43,731 nt of DNA from an uncultured Eubacteriales bacterium (GTDB lineage: Bacteria; Bacillota; Clostridia; Oscillospirales; Oscillospiraceae): contig CASFNR010000024.1 of assembly GCA_949296115.1 (NCBI GenBank), positions 1-43,731 on the forward strand, read 5' to 3'. The position numbers and the translations under genes were made by a program. Below are positions 28,153 to 36,679 of the stretch, piece after piece. Below the pieces are notes generated by a model, which did not search any database, was not told where the DNA came from, and was given only the letters and a program-made list of their open reading frames with translations. Within the stretch, counting starts at the first letter, position 1. Every line of letters begins with the position of its first letter.

Positions 28153-28228
28153 GGGAGCATAGCTCAGCTGGGAGAGCACATGCCTTACAAGCATGGGGTC
28201 ACAGGTTCGAGCCCTGTTGTTCCCACCA
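28153..28228 (+). tRNA. tRNA-Val (anticodon TAC)
   Basis: A full 76-nt cloverleaf: acceptor GGGAGCA/TGTTCCC, anticodon arm CATGC-CTTACAA-GCATG with TAC, T-loop TTCGAGC and an encoded CCA at 28226-28228. Confidence 0.95.
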
Positions 28229-28236
28229 TTTTATCT

Positions 28237-28313
28237 GGCCCGGTGGTGCAGTCGGTTAGCACGCCAGCCTGTCACGCTGGAGGTCGACGGTTCGAGTCCG
28301 TTCCGGGTCGCCA
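28237..28313 (+). tRNA. tRNA-Asp (anticodon GTC)
   Basis: A 77-nt cloverleaf: acceptor GGCCCGG/CCGGGTC, anticodon arm CCAGC-CTGTCAC-GCTGG with GTC, T-loop TTCGAGT, G discriminator and encoded CCA. Confidence 0.95.
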
Positions 28314-28336
28314 TTTTTATGCATCTTGGTGCATGC

Positions 28337-28356
28337 GAGCAGAAGCAATTCTGCTC
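28337..28356 (+). other. Hairpin between tRNA-Asp and tRNA-Phe
   Basis: GAGCAGAA-GCAA-TTCTGCTC forms a perfect 8-bp stem in the 48-bp spacer. There is no U tract, so it is more likely a processing structure than a terminator. Confidence 0.4.
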
Positions 28357-28361
28357 CACAT

Positions 28362-28437
<76 letters not shown>

Positions 28438-28440
28438 GAT

Positions 28441-28510
28441 GCGGGTGTAGCTCATCTGCGCCACCTTGCCAAGGTGGAGGTAGCGAGTTCGAGCCTCGTC
28501 ACCCGCTCCA
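28441..28510 (+). tRNA. tRNA-Gly (anticodon GCC), D-arm truncated
   Basis: Acceptor GCGGGTG/CACCCGC, anticodon arm CCACC-TTGCCAA-GGTGG with GCC, T-arm and encoded CCA are all intact. The gene is only 70 nt, though. Between position 9 and the anticodon stem it reads GCTCATCTGCG, whereas a normal D-arm would be GCTC, a loop with the invariant GG, then GAGCG. About 6 nt (GGTAGA or an equivalent) are missing, so neither a four-pair D-stem nor the G18-G19 contact to the T-loop can form. It is probably non-functional as written, or a sequence error. Confidence 0.75.
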
Positions 28511-28515
28511 AACAG

Positions 28516-28543
28516 ATAAGGAACGCGTTTGCGTTCCTTATTT
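28516..28543 (+). terminator. Hairpin between tRNA-Gly and tRNA-Cys
   Basis: ATAAGGAACGC-GTTT-GCGTTCCTTAT is an 11-bp stem followed by only TTC. It may terminate part of the tRNA transcripts before tRNA-Cys or serve in processing. Confidence 0.5.
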
Positions 28544-28548
28544 CATAC

Positions 28549-28623
28549 GGTACCGTGGCCAAGTGGTAAGGCAAGAGTCTGCAAAACTCTCATTCCCCAG
28601 TTCAAATCTGGGCGGTACCTCCA
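28549..28623 (+). tRNA. tRNA-Cys (anticodon GCA)
   Basis: A 75-nt cloverleaf: acceptor GGTACCG/CGGTACC, anticodon arm AGAGT-CTGCAAA-ACTCT with GCA, T-loop TTCAAAT, T discriminator and encoded CCA. Confidence 0.95.
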
Positions 28624-30677: not shown

Positions 30678-32012
30678 TTATTTGCTTTCCTCTTTGGGCA
30701 GCACCAGATTCAGGATGATGGCCAGGATGGTGGCGACCACCACGGAAGAGGAGCCGAACACGGTGGCAACCCACTCCGGGAAGCCGTTGCCGGACAGGCA
30801 GCCGGAGACCTGGGTGATGCCGGTGCCCAGGGCCACGGACAGGCCAACCACGGAACTCTTGCGCATGGTAAAGGGGCCTTCCGAGGTAATCATCCGGATA
30901 CCGGTCATGGTGATGGTGGAGAACACGGACAAAGTAGCGCCGCCGATGACGCACTGGGGAATGGTGGTGAGCAGGGCGGCGAACTTGGGCATGAAGCCGG
31001 CAACCAGCAGCACGCAGGAGGCGAAGGTGAACACGGCCCGGTTGATGACCTTGTTCACGGTGACAATGCCCACGTTCTGGCTGTAGGAGGCCACCGGCAG
31101 ACCGCCGATGAAAGGCCCGATAACACTGATGACGCCCTGACCGATGATGCCGGCGGAGAGCTCCCGGTCCGTGGGCAGCCGGTCCATGCCGCCCATGGTG
31201 GTGGAGGTCAGGTCCCCGATGGTCTGGACGGAGTTGACGATGTACACAATCGCAAGGGAGGCGATGGCGGAGGGAACGAACTTGATTTCAAAAGGCATGA
31301 TGGGGGGCAGGGAAACCCAGGATGCGCCGCCCACGCTGGACAGATCCACAATGCCCACAAAGAAGGCGGCGATGTAGCCCACAATCATACCGAACAGCAG
31401 TGCACCCAGCTTCCAGATGCCCTTGGCGAAATTATTCAGGTAGATGACCACCGCAAAGGTCAACAGGGCCACACCCCAGCTTCGCAGACCGCCGAACCAG
31501 GGGCTCAAGGCATCGCCGCCGGCCATGTACCGCACAGCGGTGGGGTAGAGGGACAGACCGATGGTGAAAATCACCGTGCCTGTTACCAGGGGCGGGAAGA
31601 ACACCCGGATTTTCTTGACGAAGATGCCGAAGAAAATGGCCACAAAGCCGCCGGCAAGCTCCGCACCCATGATGGTGGGCAGGTCGAACTGCATGCCGAT
31701 GGCGGTGAGGGTGGGAACATAGGCGAAGCTGATGCCCATAATCACCGGAAGCCGTGCGCCGATGCGGCCGAAAATGGGGAACAGCTGCAGCAGGGTGGCG
31801 ATGGCGGTGATAATCAGGGCCGCCTGAATGAGAATGGTTTTGTCCGCCACGCTCAGGTTGCACACATCGCTGCCGGAGATGATGATGGCGGGGGTGATGA
31901 CGCCCACCACGGCAGCAACCACGTGCTGCAGGCCCAGGGGGACGAGCTGTCCCGCAGGGGGAATTCCGTCGTAGGAAAAGACGCTTGCGGGGGCCTTCTG
32001 ATTGGTTTTCAT
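30678..32012 (-). CDS. NCS2 nucleobase:cation symporter, purine-type signature
   Basis: The 444-residue permease with about 14 helices belongs to the NCS2 (xanthine/uracil) family, which imports free nucleobases with H+ or Na+. It contains PLGLQHVVA, the GADLTG-like region and the family signature SYSQNVGIV. The QNxG form is typical of xanthine/urate/purine carriers, whereas uracil permeases (UraA, PyrP) have ENIG. It lies 33 bp after pyrI on the same strand, so it is likely the third gene of the pyrB operon, which would suggest uracil. Sequence and context disagree; I leave the substrate open. Its ribosome site is weak. Confidence 0.85.
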   Translation of the reverse strand: MKTNQKAPASVFSYDGIPPAGQLVPLGLQHVVAAVVGVITPAIIISGSDVCNLSVADKTILIQAALIITAIATLLQLFPIFGRIGARLPVIMGISFAYVPTLTAIGMQFDLPTIMGAELAGGFVAIFFGIFVKKIRVFFPPLVTGTVIFTIGLSLYPTAVRYMAGGDALSPWFGGLRSWGVALLTFAVVIYLNNFAKGIWKLGALLFGMIVGYIAAFFVGIVDLSSVGGASWVSLPPIMPFEIKFVPSAIASLAIVYIVNSVQTIGDLTSTTMGGMDRLPTDRELSAGIIGQGVISVIGPFIGGLPVASYSQNVGIVTVNKVINRAVFTFASCVLLVAGFMPKFAALLTTIPQCVIGGATLSVFSTITMTGIRMITSEGPFTMRKSSVVGLSVALGTGITQVSGCLSGNGFPEWVATVFGSSSVVVATILAIILNLVLPKEESK

Positions 32013-32045: not shown

Positions 32046-32474
32046 TTACAGGGAGTTGGAGGAAGCGGCCTGCTCACAGTAGATGCAGCGGTATACCTTT
32101 TTGGCCGGGTCCGTCAGCTTGAATTCATGCACCAGCTCCTGCTCCACGGAGGTGATGCACCGGGGATTTTTGCACTTGATGACGCCGACAACCCGTTCCG
32201 GCAGGGCCAGACGCTGCCGCTGGGCAACCTTGCCGTCCCGGATGATGTTTACGGTGATGCCTGCATCCAGGTATCCCAGCACGTCGAAATTCAGGTCCAT
32301 CAGGGTGCTGATCTTGATGATGTCCTTGCGGCCCATTTTGGTGCTCTCTGCGTTTTGAATCATGGCCACGGTGCAGTCCAGCTTGTCCAGCTTCAGCACT
32401 CTGTAGATTTCCATGCTCCGGCCCGCCGTGATGTGGTCCAGCACGATGCCGTCTTTAATCTGTCCGATGTTCAT
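32046..32474 (-). CDS. pyrI: Aspartate carbamoyltransferase regulatory subunit
   Basis: PyrI binds CTP, UTP and ATP and sets the activity of the PyrB catalytic trimers. The 142-residue protein has the N-terminal nucleotide-binding domain ([15 protein letters not shown]) and a C-terminal zinc domain with all four cysteines (CKNPRC and CIYC). Bacillus lacks pyrI, but it occurs in Clostridia and in enterobacteria. Its ATG overlaps the pyrB stop (ATGA), fixing stoichiometric co-translation. Confidence 0.95.
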
Positions 32475-33388
32475 ACCCTTACCTCCAGCATTTTCAGAAT
32501 CAAAGCCATGCGCATATATTTGCCGTTTTTCACCTGGTCAAAGTAGTGTGCTCTGGGGTCCTGGTCCACGGCGACGCTGATCTCATTGACCCGGGGCAGG
32601 GGGTGCATGATGACCAGATCGGATTTGGCGGTTTCCAGCTTGTCCGGGGTGAGGATGTAGGTATCCTTCAGCCGGATGTAGTCCGCCTCGTTGAAGAACC
32701 GCTCCTTCTGCACCCGGGTCATATACAGCACGTCCAGCTTGGGCATGGCTTCCTCCATGCTCCGCACTTCCTCATAGGGGATGCCGGCAGGCTCCAGGGT
32801 GTCGGTGAGGATGTAGCGGGGCATCCGCAGCTCCTCCGGGGAAATAAAGACGAACTTCACGCCGTGATACCGGGCCATGGCCTGGACCAGGGAGTGAACG
32901 GTCCGTCCGAACTTCAGGTCGCCGCACAGACCGATGGTCAGATTTTCAAAGGTGTGCCGTTCCCGCCAGATGGTGAGCAGGTCCGCCAGGGTCTGGGTGG
33001 GATGGTTGTGCCCGCCGTCGCCTGCGTTGATAACGGGAACCCCGGCGGTCCGGGCGGCCACCACGGGAGCGCCCTCTTTGGGGTGGCGCATGGCGATGAT
33101 GTCGGCGTAGCAGCCTACCACCCGCACGGTATCCGCCACGCTCTCGCCCTTGGCGGCAGAGGAGGAAGCGGCTTCGCTGAAGCCCAGGACAGAGCCGCCC
33201 AGTTCCAGCATGGCCGCCTCAAAGCTCAGGCGGGTGCGGGTGGAGGGCTCAAAGAACAGGGTTGCCAGTTTTTTCCGGCGGCAGCAGTCGGCATACTTAT
33301 CCGGGTTGGCGATGATGTCCTCAGCAGTGGAAATCAGGCCGGTGATTTCCTCCTTGGACAGATCGGTGACGTTCATCAGATTCTGCAT
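32471..33388 (-). CDS. pyrB: Aspartate carbamoyltransferase catalytic subunit
   Basis: PyrB joins carbamoyl phosphate and aspartate, the committed step of pyrimidine synthesis. The 305-residue protein has the carbamoyl-phosphate motif [12 protein letters not shown], the SAAKGES loop, [16 protein letters not shown], and HPLPRVNEI for aspartate binding. GGAGG lies nine bases before the ATG, and a 16-codon ORF ends one base before it. The gene is preceded by a roughly 340-nt leader with an attenuator, described separately. Confidence 0.96.
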
Positions 33389-33389
33389 T

Positions 33390-33440
33390 TCACAATACCT
33401 CCGTTATACCATTGATGCTTCCAGAGGAGAGGACACACAT
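33390..33440 (-). CDS. Possible 16-residue ORF coupled to pyrB
   Basis: GAGGAGG stands six bases before an ATG that opens a 16-codon ORF ([16 protein letters not shown]). Its TGA is separated from the pyrB ATG by one base. The strong ribosome site suggests real translation and coupling to pyrB. It lies downstream of the attenuator. It may be chance. Confidence 0.4.
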
Positions 33441-33497
33441 ATGCAACCTCCTCGGTTTCCACAGGGAAATGGCTGGATTCCGGCGCTTTTTGGACAG

Positions 33498-33542
33498 AAA
33501 AAACCCGGCTTTCAAATGTAATACTACATTGCAAAAGTCGGG
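33498..33542 (-). terminator. Attenuator terminator in the pyrB leader
   Basis: In the transcript CCCGACTTT...AATGTA pairs with TACATTTGAAAGCCGGG (mostly paired, small internal loop) and is followed by six U (33498-33503). It lies 110 bases before pyrB, so transcripts must escape it to reach the operon. The stop codon of the leader peptide falls in its loop. Confidence 0.8.
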
Positions 33543-33640
33543 AAAACGCCGGTATTCAAAGAAAGTGGTTCCAAAACGGAACCGGTAAAGGAAAAACAAA
33601 AGGGGAAAGCCGGTGCCAAACGGTTCTGCTGGTAGCGCAT
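33524..33640 (-). CDS. PyrL-like leader peptide of the pyrB operon
   Basis: This 38-residue ORF lies in the pyrB leader. AAGGAG (33647-33652) is six bases before its ATG, as good a site as for any gene here. It crosses the pyrimidine-rich tract, which it reads as FPFCFSF, then a small hairpin, and its TAG at 33524-33526 is in the loop of the attenuator. A ribosome close behind RNA polymerase would cover the 5' arm of the terminator and let transcription continue; a lagging one would not. This is the logic of pyrL in enterobacteria. The peptide sequence itself is probably unimportant. The frame is open upstream to another ATG without a ribosome site. Confidence 0.65.
   Translation of the reverse strand: MRYQQNRLAPAFPFCFSFTGSVLEPLSLNTGVFPTFAM
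33558..33608 (-). promoter_or_regulatory. U-rich pause region in the pyrB leader
   Basis: The transcript of 33586-33608 is almost pure pyrimidine, with runs of three to five U. It is followed by a perfect hairpin GGUUCC-GUUUU-GGAACC (33567-33583) and by CUUUCUUU. Low UTP would make RNA polymerase pause here, 20-45 nt ahead of the attenuator. Confidence 0.6.
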
Positions 33641-33732
33641 GCGGTACTCCTTCCCACTTGTGCCCCACAGCCGGGCAGCATCCGCTGTCATCCGTCGTGG
33701 AGGCGTGTTCCTGTCCTTCCTCATTCTGACAG

Positions 33733-33761
33733 ATTGTATCATACGGGAAAATGTTTGTCAA
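33733..33761 (-). promoter_or_regulatory. Sigma-A promoter of the pyrB operon
   Basis: On the minus strand a perfect TTGACA (33756-33761), 17 bp and TACAAT (33733-33738). The start near 33726 gives a leader of about 340 nt. Confidence 0.85.
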
Positions 33762-33787
33762 CAAAAAGATCGGGACCCATTTCAAAG

Positions 33788-33818
33788 AAAACCCGGGAGA
33801 AGCGCAGCTTCTCCCGGG
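33788..33818 (-). terminator. Terminator of the eda-kdgK operon
   Basis: A perfect 12-bp stem (CCCGGGAGAAGC / GCTTCTCCCGGG) with a 3-base loop and, on the minus strand, a TTTTCTTT tail. Confidence 0.9.
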
Positions 33819-33836
33819 GAACGGAAATGCTGGAAT

Positions 33837-34865
33837 TTATCTCTGAATCCGGCCGGAGCCGTCGCCGCCGGCCAGCTTCTCCACCTCGGGGACGGTGACC
33901 ATGTTGTAGTCTCCCCCAATGGAGTGCTTCAGTGCGGAGGCCGCCACAGCGAACTCCACCGCCTGCTGGGTGGTCTTGCCGTTGAGCAGGGAGTAGATCA
34001 GGCCGCCGCCGAAGCTGTCACCGCCGCCCACCCGGTCAACGATGTGCAGGTCGTACTTCTTGGAGAAGCAGTATTCGTCGCTGGCTACATCATAGAGCAT
34101 AGCGGACCAGCCGTTGTCAAAGGCAGAGTGGCTCTCCCGCAGGGTGATGGCGACCTTTTCAAAGCCGAACTTGTCCGCCAGCTGCTTGGCCACGGACTTG
34201 TAGCCTTCATGGTTCAGCGTGCCGCCGTAGATGTCGGTGGCCTCGGCCTCAATGCCGAACACGTCTTTGGCATCCTCCTCGTTGGAGATGCACACGTCGA
34301 TGTACTGAGCCAGCTCAGTCATGGCCTTGTTGGCCTCGGCACGGGTCCACAGCTTCCCCCGGTAGTTCAGGTCACAGGAGATTTTGATGCCCCGGGCCTT
34401 GGCGGCCTTACAGGCGTCCACGCACATCTGAACCACGTTGGGGCCCAGTGCGGGAGTGATGCCGGTGAAGTGGAACCACTCGGCGCCGTCGAAGATCTTG
34501 TCCCAGTCGAAGTCGCTGGGGGCAGCATCCTGGATGGCGGAATGAGCCCGGTCATAGATGCAGACACTGCCCCGCTGGGAGGCGCCCTTCTCGTTGAAGT
34601 AAATGCCCACACGGTCGCCGCCCCGGACGATCTTGGTGGTGTCCACGCCGTAGCGGCGCAGGGAGTTCACAGCAGCCTGCCCGATGGCGTGGGCGGGCAG
34701 CTTGGTGACAAAAGCCACGTCTACGCCGTAGTTGGCCAGGGACACGGCCACATTGGCCTCGCCGCCGCCGAAGGTGAATTCTACATGATCGCACTGGACA
34801 AACCGCTCATAGTTGTACGGCTGCAGGCGGAGCATCAGCTCGCCGAAGGTAATTACTTTAGCCAT
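33837..34865 (-). CDS. kdgK: 2-keto-3-deoxygluconate kinase
   Basis: The 342-residue PfkB-family sugar kinase phosphorylates 2-keto-3-deoxygluconate to KDPG, the substrate of the aldolase encoded just upstream. It has the N-terminal GELMLRL, the FGGGEANVAVSLANYG signature 1, SCDLNYRGKLW and the C-terminal catalytic GGGDSFGGG. Its start overlaps the eda stop by eight bases. Pairing with eda supports KDG rather than another sugar. Together they degrade hexuronates such as galacturonate to pyruvate and glyceraldehyde-3-phosphate. Confidence 0.9.
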   Translation of the reverse strand: MAKVITFGELMLRLQPYNYERFVQCDHVEFTFGGGEANVAVSLANYGVDVAFVTKLPAHAIGQAAVNSLRRYGVDTTKIVRGGDRVGIYFNEKGASQRGSVCIYDRAHSAIQDAAPSDFDWDKIFDGAEWFHFTGITPALGPNVVQMCVDACKAAKARGIKISCDLNYRGKLWTRAEANKAMTELAQYIDVCISNEEDAKDVFGIEAEATDIYGGTLNHEGYKSVAKQLADKFGFEKVAITLRESHSAFDNGWSAMLYDVASDEYCFSKKYDLHIVDRVGGGDSFGGGLIYSLLNGKTTQQAVEFAVAASALKHSIGGDYNMVTVPEVEKLAGGDGSGRIQR

Positions 34866-35505
34866 TCTTTTTAGCCTCCTTGAACACTTCTACAGACTTC
34901 TTGCACAGCTCGGTGATCTCATCCCACTTGCCCTCGGTGATGAGCTTGTCAGGGCACATGTAGGAACCGCCGCAGGCGGCAATCACGGGGCAGGCAGCGT
35001 ACTCGGCCAGATTCTTCAGGCTGATGCCGCCGGTGGGCATGACCTTGAACATGGAGAAGGGAGCCGCCATGGCCTTGATCTTGGCCAGACCGCCGGACTG
35101 CTCGGCAGGGAAGAACTTGATCAGCTCCAGGCCCAGCTTATAAGCGGTGTGGTAGTCGGTGGGTGTGCTGCAGCCGGGGAAGCAGATGATGCCCTTGGAC
35201 TGGCAGTACTTCACGATATCCGGGTCCAGGCCGGGGGTGACGATGAACTTGCCGCCGGCGGCAATGGTCTTGTCCACCTGCTCGGTGGTCAGCACGGTGC
35301 CGGCACCCACCAGCATATCGGGATGACGCTCCAGCATGATCCGCATGGCCTCGTCCGCACCGGCGGCACGGAAGGTGATTTCGGCCACAGGCACGCCGCC
35401 TGCGCACAGAGCATCGGACAGGGGACCTGCGTCCCGCTGGGGATTGGTCAGCTTGATCACCGGCACGACGCCGATTTCACAAAGCTTTTGCTGCATTTCA
35501 TTCAT
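34858..35505 (-). CDS. eda: KDPG/KHG aldolase
   Basis: This 215-residue class I aldolase splits 2-keto-3-deoxy-6-phosphogluconate into pyruvate and glyceraldehyde-3-phosphate. The catalytic Glu lies in the AEITFRA strand, GAGTVLT is the phosphate-side loop, FPGCSTPTD is conserved, and the Schiff-base Lys is in LIKFFPAE. The ATG at 35505 is behind GGAGGAG; an upstream in-frame ATG overlaps that site. It is the first gene of the operon with kdgK. Confidence 0.93.
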   Translation of the reverse strand: MNEMQQKLCEIGVVPVIKLTNPQRDAGPLSDALCAGGVPVAEITFRAAGADEAMRIMLERHPDMLVGAGTVLTTEQVDKTIAAGGKFIVTPGLDPDIVKYCQSKGIICFPGCSTPTDYHTAYKLGLELIKFFPAEQSGGLAKIKAMAAPFSMFKVMPTGGISLKNLAEYAACPVIAACGGSYMCPDKLITEGKWDEITELCKKSVEVFKEAKKNG

Positions 35506-35567
35506 AGTGAACTCCTCCAAACTAATCTAACCAGAAAGCTTGCAAACGGCAAACCTCTCATACCATA

Positions 35568-35596
35568 ATGATACTGATAAATTCGGCAAAAATCAA
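35568..35596 (-). promoter_or_regulatory. Promoter of eda-kdgK
   Basis: On the minus strand TTGATT (35591-35596), 17 bp and TATCAT (35568-35573). Confidence 0.55.
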
Positions 35597-35631
35597 TTCA
35601 AATTCTGGACGTTTTATGGAAAAAACGGCAA

Positions 35632-35639
35632 TGTATACA
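35632..35639. promoter_or_regulatory. TGTATACA palindrome, candidate GntR-type operator
   Basis: The palindrome TGTATACA, within TTGTATACATT on the minus strand, lies 36 bp upstream of the eda -35. GntR-family sugar-acid regulators often bind TTGTATACAA-like sites. No regulator gene is adjacent, so the assignment is inference. Confidence 0.35.
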
Positions 35640-35692
35640 AAAATGTGATTTTTATTTCACTATATTATAAATTGATAACCGGGGAAAGACGT

Positions 35693-36679
35693 CTAAGACT
35701 TGTCGGATTCCGCCGCCAGCGTCAGCGTGGTTCCCGGATAGTAGTAGGCCAGAATTTCCTGCCAGCTGCTTCCCCGCACCGCCATGGCGTCGGCGCCGTA
35801 CTGACTCATGCCCACCCGATGCCCATAGCCATGGGTGGTGATGACCAGCTGATTCCCCTCCGCCTGGATGGAGAAGCTGGTGGAAGGGAGATTCAAGAGA
35901 CTGCGCAGCTGGGTGCCGCTGAAAAGCTGCCCGCCGATACAAACGGAAGCAATCCCGCCGCCTTCGGTGAAGGTGACGTCGGAGAACCATTGGTCCGGAC
36001 TTTCAGACAGACTTAGGCCAAGGGCCTGCTGAAATGCCTCGGCTGTCAGGGTGAAGGTATCGGCGTAATGAACGGCGTCCTCTTCACCGGGGCTGTCCAG
36101 TGCCTGAAGATAGGGAAACGACACCCCCCAGACCGCTGCGGCGTCCTCCGTCCGTCCGCCGGAGCAGGAGAAGTAAGTTGCCTCGATCAGTTCCCCCTCA
36201 TAAGTCAGGACATAGCCGGAGGTGGCGGCGACCGCCTGCTCCACCTTGGCCAGAGAGGTCATGGTTCCGCCCTGGCTGAGAAAGTCAGCAGGGTCAATGT
36301 ATGCCTGACAGCAGGACGGCTGGGTGCAGACGCTGCCATCCCCATGCTTTCCGCCGGTGACGTAGGCTTTCCAGGCATAGGTTCTCGCCGCCACACTCTG
36401 GGCTTTCAGCGCCTCGGGCTCAAAATCTGCCGGCATTTCCGCCAACACCACCCCCACAAGGTACGCATCCAGATCCTGCTCCTCCACAATATCATCACGG
36501 CTGCGCACCAAAACGGGAAGAGGGACAGACTCCTCCTGTGACTGGGAAACCGTTGTGGGGAGCGTGACAGCCTGGACGTCCGGCTGACACAGCAGCTTAG
36601 CCGCAGCGTTGAACAGAAAGCCAGGCAGGATCAGCCCCATCAAGATGGCGGTCAGCAGATCGTTCAGAAATTCTTTCAT
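35693..36679 (-). CDS. spoIID: Stage II sporulation protein D
   Basis: SpoIID is a membrane-anchored lytic transglycosylase that cuts peptidoglycan during engulfment of the forespore, with SpoIIP and SpoIIM. The 328-residue protein has an N-terminal membrane anchor (about residues 8-28). Then come the SpoIID domain with YLVGVVLAEMPADFEPEALKAQSVAARTYA including the catalytic Glu, the SCCQAY and YFSCSGGRTE regions with zinc-site Cys residues, and the C-terminal HGYGHRVGMSQYGADAMA signature. AGGAGG precedes the ATG. No convincing sigma-E promoter is seen upstream, only an isolated CATACC. Confidence 0.93.
   Translation of the reverse strand: MKEFLNDLLTAILMGLILPGFLFNAAAKLLCQPDVQAVTLPTTVSQSQEESVPLPVLVRSRDDIVEEQDLDAYLVGVVLAEMPADFEPEALKAQSVAARTYAWKAYVTGGKHGDGSVCTQPSCCQAYIDPADFLSQGGTMTSLAKVEQAVAATSGYVLTYEGELIEATYFSCSGGRTEDAAAVWGVSFPYLQALDSPGEEDAVHYADTFTLTAEAFQQALGLSLSESPDQWFSDVTFTEGGGIASVCIGGQLFSGTQLRSLLNLPSTSFSIQAEGNQLVITTHGYGHRVGMSQYGADAMAVRGSSWQEILAYYYPGTTLTLAAESDKS

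Follow-up and report, generated by a model that had tools for sequence, protein, structure and literature searches.

How is pyrBI transcription adjusted to the pyrimidine supply in a member of the Firmicutes with no detectable PyrR? PyrR-RNA attenuation is the usual pyr control in this phylum. PyrL-type attenuation, the textbook nucleotide sensor built on a race between polymerase and ribosome, is tied to enterobacteria; in Escherichia coli pyrBI, low UTP stalls the polymerase in a U-rich tract, so that the ribosome on pyrL catches up and blocks the terminator. We analysed a stretch of 43,731 nucleotides (here, the window), which is contig C24 of the Oscillospiraceae genome G000 (2.42 Mb, about 90% complete). 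Its sequence and that of related loci point to a pyrBI leader that probably acts as a PyrL-type, UTP-sensing and translation-coupled transcription attenuator, perhaps with the aid of NusG.

On the minus strand of the window, a promoter, a Shine-Dalgarno (SD) sequence, an open reading frame (ORF), a pyrimidine tract, a hairpin, a terminator and its T6 tail precede pyrB and pyrI in this order. The sigma-A type promoter (TTGACA-17-TACAAT, 33733..33761; TTGACA at 33761-33756, TACAAT at 33738-33733) agrees with the consensus at 11 of 12 positions and ranks best among the three sites found in 32500-36000; both hexamers are identical in the sister genome G047 (locus L004), and transcription is expected to start near 33726. 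The SD sequence AAGGAG (33647..33652) lies 6 nt ahead of the ATG at 33640, and AAGGAGTACCG is the same in G047. The leader ORF of 38 codons, MRYQQNRLAPAFPFCFSFTGSVLEPLSLNTGVFPTFAM (33524..33640), ends with TAG (33526-33524) in the upper stem and loop of the terminator hairpin. The pyrimidine tract CTTTCCCCTTTTGTTTTTCCTTT (33587..33609), in which 22 of 23 bases are C or T, includes TTGTTT, a match to the motif TTNTTT, and is proposed to be a UTP-sensitive slow zone. It is followed by a perfect 6-bp hairpin, GGUUCC-GUUUU-GGAACC (33567..33583; -9.4 kcal/mol, z -3.3), a proposed pause hairpin that is kept in G047 and there longer by one pair. Immediately 3' of it, TTTCTTT (33558..33564) matches TTNTTT again, 21 nt before the terminator and at the position expected of a NusG-type pause; this copy is not kept in G047, which has TTTTCTCT and no TTNTTT match there. 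The intrinsic terminator hairpin (33504..33542; -14.0 kcal/mol, z -3.6) is imperfect and is followed by T6 (33498..33503), from which pyrB is 109 nt away. The initial annotation had listed this series from the promoter to the stop-holding terminator before pyrB, and every element lies where it had been placed.

In the read-through RNA, an outer stem may enclose the terminator (33480..33552, with 33552-33543 pairing to 33491-33480; -28.4 kcal/mol, z -4.7). Read by hand, this stem of 10 bp has one pair changed on both sides and a shifted bulge in G047. Between the terminator and pyrB, a second SD sequence, GAGGAGG, and an ATG open a frame of 16 codons that ends just ahead of pyrB (33440-33390, minus strand); SD and ATG are retained in G047, the reading frame is not. 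The genes pyrB (32471..33388; TIGR00670, 339.7 bits, NCBIfam cut-off 236.95) and pyrI (32046..32474; NF002063, 196.6 bits, NCBIfam cut-off 171) encode the catalytic and regulatory subunits of aspartate carbamoyltransferase. An NCS2 nucleobase:cation symporter gene on the same strand (30678..32012; TIGR00801 above cut-off, while TIGR03173 pbuX scored higher but below its own cut-off) is possibly part of the pyrBI transcript. Elsewhere in the window, five tRNA genes cluster at 28153-28620 on the plus strand.

The initial annotation had seen no PyrR-type loop in the transcript, and this agrees with our searches: the PyrR binding element RF00515 was not found by Rfam in the leader, the window or the G000 genome, and the best match to the PyrR protein in this genome of about 90% completeness reached 20 bits against a cut-off of 138. 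A PyrR-binding loop detected by covariance search in the leader was another outcome named beforehand as speaking against the initial annotation, and none appeared. PyrR RNA was rejected on these grounds as an explanation of the window leader. The leader matched no Rfam family at gathering score and gave only unlikely weak matches. The Rfam negative is weak, because the RF00515 model also missed pyrC loci of PyrR-bearing genomes that carry a PyrR-box-like motif (see below); stronger evidence comes from the protein search and from that motif. PyrR was likewise over the cut-off in none of 16 genus mates of G000 (weak sub-threshold matches occurred), so that within that genus a lack of PyrR does not single out the leader genomes.

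Taken alone, the window leader is suggestive but not significant. When its terminator was held fixed and the remaining leader shuffled, an ORF ending in the hairpin arose in 8% of cases if an SD sequence was demanded and in 11% with an ATG only. With a chance level of about 0.1, the weight of the argument rests on comparative data.

Full-length leader DNA occurred in two of 136 genus genomes, G000 and G047, which are 86% identical over 377 nt; eight more matched over 19-34 nt only and were not counted as leaders. The lack of a leader-length match in the other 134 reflects a different locus layout rather than leader decay, because nearly all genus pyrB loci read follow pyrE. PyrB was present in 52 of 61 sampled genus genomes at 53 places, 50 of which were read, 49 with enough upstream sequence; all but L003, L004 and L012 were preceded by pyrE. 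Loss of the ORF or the terminator in close relatives had been named beforehand as an outcome that would speak against the initial annotation, and both are kept in G047, the one close relative in which the locus was found. Between G000 and G047, the leader ORF (117 nt) has nine substitutions, no gaps and an identical length, and the 108 nt 3' of the terminator have 14 substitutions and eight gap columns. Every substitution inside the pyrimidine tract stays a pyrimidine. Eight codons of the ORF changed, four synonymously and four non-synonymously, so that constraint on the peptide is not visible, and no selection on peptide sequence was seen in seven leader pairs. This fits a peptide that is a mere ribosome carrier, but it also leaves the ORF without support at the protein level.

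A leader was also found in an uncultured Clostridia MAG (L082), whose PyrB is 81% identical to that of the window and which, judged by shared places between two sets of loci, belongs to the family of G000. Within about 210 nt of pyrB, this locus has a promoter, AGGAGG and an ORF, MNYTVPKIGRRDVDFIGISSIFAFIPDF, with the stop falling in a -20 kcal/mol terminator that is preceded by ATTTCTTCTATTTTTGCTTTTATT. The terminators of L082 and the window align with a local score of 26, which was reached by one of 300 shuffles, and their third stem pair is T-A in L082 and C-G in the window. Among seven leaders compared with that of the window, those of G047 and L082 aligned beyond chance, one before pyrC gave a weak alignment (L268; score reached by 3 of 300 shuffles), and four did not align beyond chance.

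In all, 217 pyrB loci were collected, of which 26 were dropped as copies and L046 for its cut-off upstream region. Of the 190 distinct upstream regions, 166 lie behind pyrE, as assigned by a pyrE signature whose wider version moved L014, L015 and L019 into this class, and 24 do not; a leader of PyrL-like kind was present in 13 of these 24. Ten come from Erysipelotrichaceae genomes (G526-G530, G738, G757, G762, G768 and G773), with ORFs of 20-32 codons, terminators ending 21-33 nt ahead of pyrB and sequences unrelated to the Oscillospiraceae window leader. A sample of 244 genomes yielded PyrB at E 1e-60 in 37, seven of them with the leader. In four pyrB leaders (L115, L135, L186 and L187), the ATG lies 7-8 nt past the -10 box and their ORFs would therefore be translated from the extreme 5' end of the RNA; judged by this spacing, they are probably leaderless leader peptides.

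The pyrC operons of the same ten genomes, examined afterwards, have leaders as well, different from those at pyrB. In all ten, judged by eye, an ORF overlaps the terminator or stops within 9 nt of it; that of L266 runs through the terminator into the start of pyrC, much like E. coli pyrL in front of pyrB. The isolate Erysipelotrichaceae bacterium NK3D112 (L102, L255) has leaders at both pyrB and pyrC. Genes of the operon are pyrC (TIGR00857 above cut-off), a pyrK-like gene (below cut-off), pyrD and pyrF (both above cut-off, pyrF as tested in L256) and pyrE (TIGR00336). Four of these loci (L261, L262, L264 and L265) show, by eye, a second terminator-like hairpin with T7 roughly 170-215 nt upstream of pyrC, which precedes the leader ORF and lies near the promoter; they may be tandem attenuators.

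The 13 leaders before pyrB and the 10 before pyrC were analysed as one set of 23. An ATG-started ORF of at least 18 codons with its stop between 12 nt before the hairpin and the hairpin end was present in 22 of 23 leaders, compared with 4.9 expected from shuffles; with an SD sequence demanded, the numbers were 17 and 1.5. In contrast, 18 other terminators from the survey, a mixed set with some members inside pyrE coding sequence, were at chance level (3 versus 2.5 expected; with SD, 2 versus 1.1). The pyrC leaders alone gave 9 of 10, or 8 of 10 with SD, at expectations of 2.2 and 0.5, and they had played no part in picking the genomes, which were selected by their pyrB leader. Over the whole set, 16 stops lie inside the hairpin, six start 1-9 nt before it, and L266 reads through. 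A stricter detection (15 codons) missed six of the 23 leaders (L115, L135, L186, L187, L261 and L266) as well as E. coli pyrL, and also matched the control loci L054, L279 and L284.

The leaders are also rich in U ahead of the terminator. The T fraction of the last 45 nt is 0.42, compared with 0.23 in the preceding 85 nt (Wilcoxon P 1.3e-5) and with 0.28 over the same length ahead of 14 of those other terminators (Mann-Whitney P 7e-6). TTNTTT occurs in 15 of 23 leaders (5.3 expected), in one of the 18 other terminators and not in E. coli pyrL. The window itself is hardly richer in T before its terminator (0.40 in 45 nt) than in the rest of the ORF (0.36), and its best 20-nt T stretch has a shuffle P of 0.04; the pyrimidine tract lies 45-67 nt before the terminator, compared with 18-28 nt in E. 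coli. As a control, E. coli pyrL did not stand out: its stop counts only if allowed up to 30 nt past the hairpin (0 of 1 otherwise), and its T fraction is 0.31 (shuffle P 0.31). The stop, U and TTNTTT measures are therefore characteristics of the Firmicutes leaders that the model case does not validate. All P values err on the optimistic side, since there is kinship among leaders of the same clade and the pyrB leaders were initially recognised by eye; firmer arguments come from the pyrC result and from the difference between the set and the other terminators.

Distribution of PyrR and of the leaders suggests that one stands in for the other in the Erysipelotrichaceae. The PyrR protein (NF003549) scored over the cut-off in none of 13 leader genomes, compared with 22 of 30 other PyrB-bearing Erysipelotrichaceae. 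Within the sample of 244 genomes, the comparison is 0 of 7 with 22 of 30 (Fisher's exact about 6e-4, calculated by hand and uncorrected for kinship), and the ten leader genomes group together by PyrC identity (69-100% versus 44-51%). Ten of the 22 PyrR-bearing genomes were examined at the start of the pyrC operon, and all ten carry a motif that we call PyrR-box-like after the PyrR consensus, the pattern having been written after viewing those loci. It is present in two of seven genomes with neither PyrR nor leader and in none of the ten leader genomes. The leader therefore occupies the place of the PyrR element in these loci. Mapped on a tree built from 76 PyrB sequences, presence of the leader takes four changes, of which well-supported branches force three or more. 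This fits separate gains in each of the two families; possible alternative histories combine gains with losses or involve a transfer of the locus.

Further elements were noted at pyrC loci. Upstream of pyrC in G000, G047, G531 and G018 (at about 2000-2135 in L252 and at the corresponding position in L253, L254 and L258), we observed a promoter, GATAAATAC or a close variant where the transcript is expected to begin, and a terminator that is conserved, GTCTTGCCG..CGGCAGGAC, followed by a T run, with no obvious leader ORF. A GGCGGC..GCCGC pairing in G000 could compete with this terminator. The region had no Rfam match and is possibly another, undescribed attenuator in genomes without PyrR. A ACAAGAATTAGGAACTT-like sequence lies shortly after the pyrC promoter in L279, L281 and L282, which belong to genomes (G667, G715 and G765) with neither PyrR over the cut-off nor a leader.

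These arrangements are consistent with the following mechanism at the window leader. RNA polymerase would start near 33726, and a ribosome would load at AAGGAG and the ATG at 33640. At high UTP, the polymerase would clear the U-rich tract fast and outrun the ribosome; with the polymerase ahead, the hairpin 33542-33504 and U6 would stop transcription before pyrBI. At low UTP (and CTP), the polymerase would slow in the tract and then at the perfect hairpin with TTTCTTT, where the Firmicutes NusG perhaps aids the slowing. The ribosome would catch up, reach the stop codon inside the terminator hairpin and cover its 5' arm, which would allow read-through into pyrBI. The leader peptide would serve solely to bring the ribosome to the terminator. 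We infer that the ORF is translated, that the polymerase pauses, that the leader responds to UTP and that NusG plays a role. TTNTTT is the non-template motif of NusG-dependent pausing in Bacillus subtilis (described in PMC12288461), where N81 and T82 are the NusG residues that promote the pause, and one copy right after a perfect hairpin is the layout of such a pause; a possible NusG-type holding point is therefore proposed here.

The leaders could instead be translation-dependent attenuators for another signal, such as charged tRNA-Phe or tRNA-Ser or the general speed of translation, with U-richness as a side effect of codons for hydrophobic residues. Phe is frequent in the window peptide (FPFCFSF), the commonest residues across the 23 leaders are S, F, L, V and I, and PMC9413887 predicts His leader peptides for six species of Erysipelotrichales. 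However, residue runs never exceed two in any of the 23 peptides, Phe is missing from two of them, and the downstream genes are pyrB and pyrC, which makes this explanation unlikely. Its classical form, amino-acid attenuation, was rejected: no leader of the 23 has a regulatory codon run, and the antiterminator that it needs was not found, as pairing of upstream sequence with the 5' arm of the terminator was like that of shuffles (mean z -0.03 over 23 leaders; +0.65 in the window).

Alternatively, leader translation might simply hold the terminator partly open and set a fixed, unregulated ratio of read-through, a relief of polarity with no nucleotide sensing. The stop-in-hairpin geometry would suffice for this without any sensor. 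It would leave aside both the U-rich sequence and TTNTTT enriched before the terminators of the set, and the use of the design at two pyr transcription units, where PyrR-bearing relatives have the PyrR-box-like motif; we thus give polarity relief just as little credit. That the window ORF is accidental and its terminator run by an undescribed protein or small-molecule RNA switch is very improbable: the chance level at the window terminator, the outer stem with its pair changed on both sides and the further terminator before pyrC in G000 and relatives would allow it, but the leader has no Rfam family at gathering score, G047 keeps the ORF without indels, and L082 has an aligned terminator with a leader ORF of its own.

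The PyrL-like reading, as put forward in the initial annotation, thus is supported and is the best available: Erysipelotrichaceae in which PyrR was not detected show the design again at pyrB and pyrC, built from unrelated sequences, and this recurrence in a second family supports it. Coupling of transcription and translation is the point at which it meets resistance. In B. subtilis, RNA polymerase is reported to outpace the ribosome (Johnson et al. 2020, cited in PMC7858274); under such runaway transcription the ribosome would be left behind, and a PyrL-type device would be hard to operate. The same study, again as cited in PMC7858274, used a stop codon near a terminator as a sign of uncoupled transcription. 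In the loci of G000, G047 and G531, an upstream stop codon lies no more than 8 nt from the start of the terminator in 6 of 15 cases, as it does in 3 of 14 in the Erysipelotrichaceae leader genomes (ORFs not curated in either count). This closeness counts against a coupled device; the His leader peptides predicted in Erysipelotrichales point the other way.

A broader claim, which we regard as evenly poised, would be that UTP-sensing race attenuators evolved in PyrR-less Firmicutes of two or more families, among them the Oscillospiraceae and the Erysipelotrichaceae. In an Erysipelotrichaceae clade, these would stand in for PyrR at two pyr units (pyrBI and the pyrC operon), some of them on leaderless ORFs, with NusG-type pausing replacing the intrinsic pausing of E. 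coli. If true, transcription-translation coupling would be at work in a phylum cited as the example of uncoupled, runaway transcription, and such leaders in Firmicutes without PyrR would make the place of coupling in this phylum a simple reporter question. The leaders further suggest how a few dozen codons can take over from a protein regulator, possibly on more than one occasion. Our literature search, which covered titles and abstracts and had subscription reviews on pyr regulation outside its scope, returned none on a PyrL-like leader in Firmicutes.

Among known systems, E. coli pyrL (L172:3900-4034:-) is the closest in design. It has a 44-codon leader ORF, a U-rich segment and a translation-overlapped intrinsic terminator, with no antiterminator found, followed by pyrBI. 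The window likewise has a short ORF with a ribosome site in a pyr leader, kept in G047, and an intrinsic terminator that a ribosome on the ORF could cover; a U-rich segment upstream of the terminator is present as a sequence feature set-wide. The two differ in the position of the stop: the E. coli ORF crosses the terminator and ends 44 nt after the hairpin start and 3 nt before pyrB, and in the Firmicutes set only L266, at pyrC, reads through likewise. According to PMC5021804, E. coli depends on tight coupling over pyrL if the terminator is not to form, and the pyrL pause is described in PMC9291695 as not responding to NusA and unlikely to rely on RNA structure. The window peptide gives no local alignment with PyrL even at E 100, in line with the unlikeness noted in the initial annotation. 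We therefore do not file the leader as a homologue of PyrL, although it would work like it, and we infer a separate origin from the enterobacterial system.

The PyrR attenuators of Firmicutes (RF00515, NF003549) also attenuate transcription of pyr operons according to pyrimidine supply, but the leader genomes have a reading frame instead of the PyrR-box-like motif at the head of pyrC, and PyrR stays below the cut-off. Histidine leader peptides have been argued for hisS and hisZ of Firmicutes by Naville and Gautheret, in passages that name no pyr leader (PMC2965389). The His attenuators predicted in Erysipelotrichales belong to the same order as the pyr leaders and are ribosome-dependent as well; as described in passages of PMC9413887, they have three to five consecutive His codons and antiterminators, whereas the pyr leaders have neither. 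The tlrB (yxjB) leader of B. subtilis, as presented in parts of PMC6851288, shares with the pyr leaders a leader peptide and a ribosome-blocked terminator, together with a NusG-dependent pause that aligns polymerase and ribosome. There, however, the signal is tylosin, which stalls the ribosome, whereas the signal at the pyr leaders is proposed to act on the polymerase.
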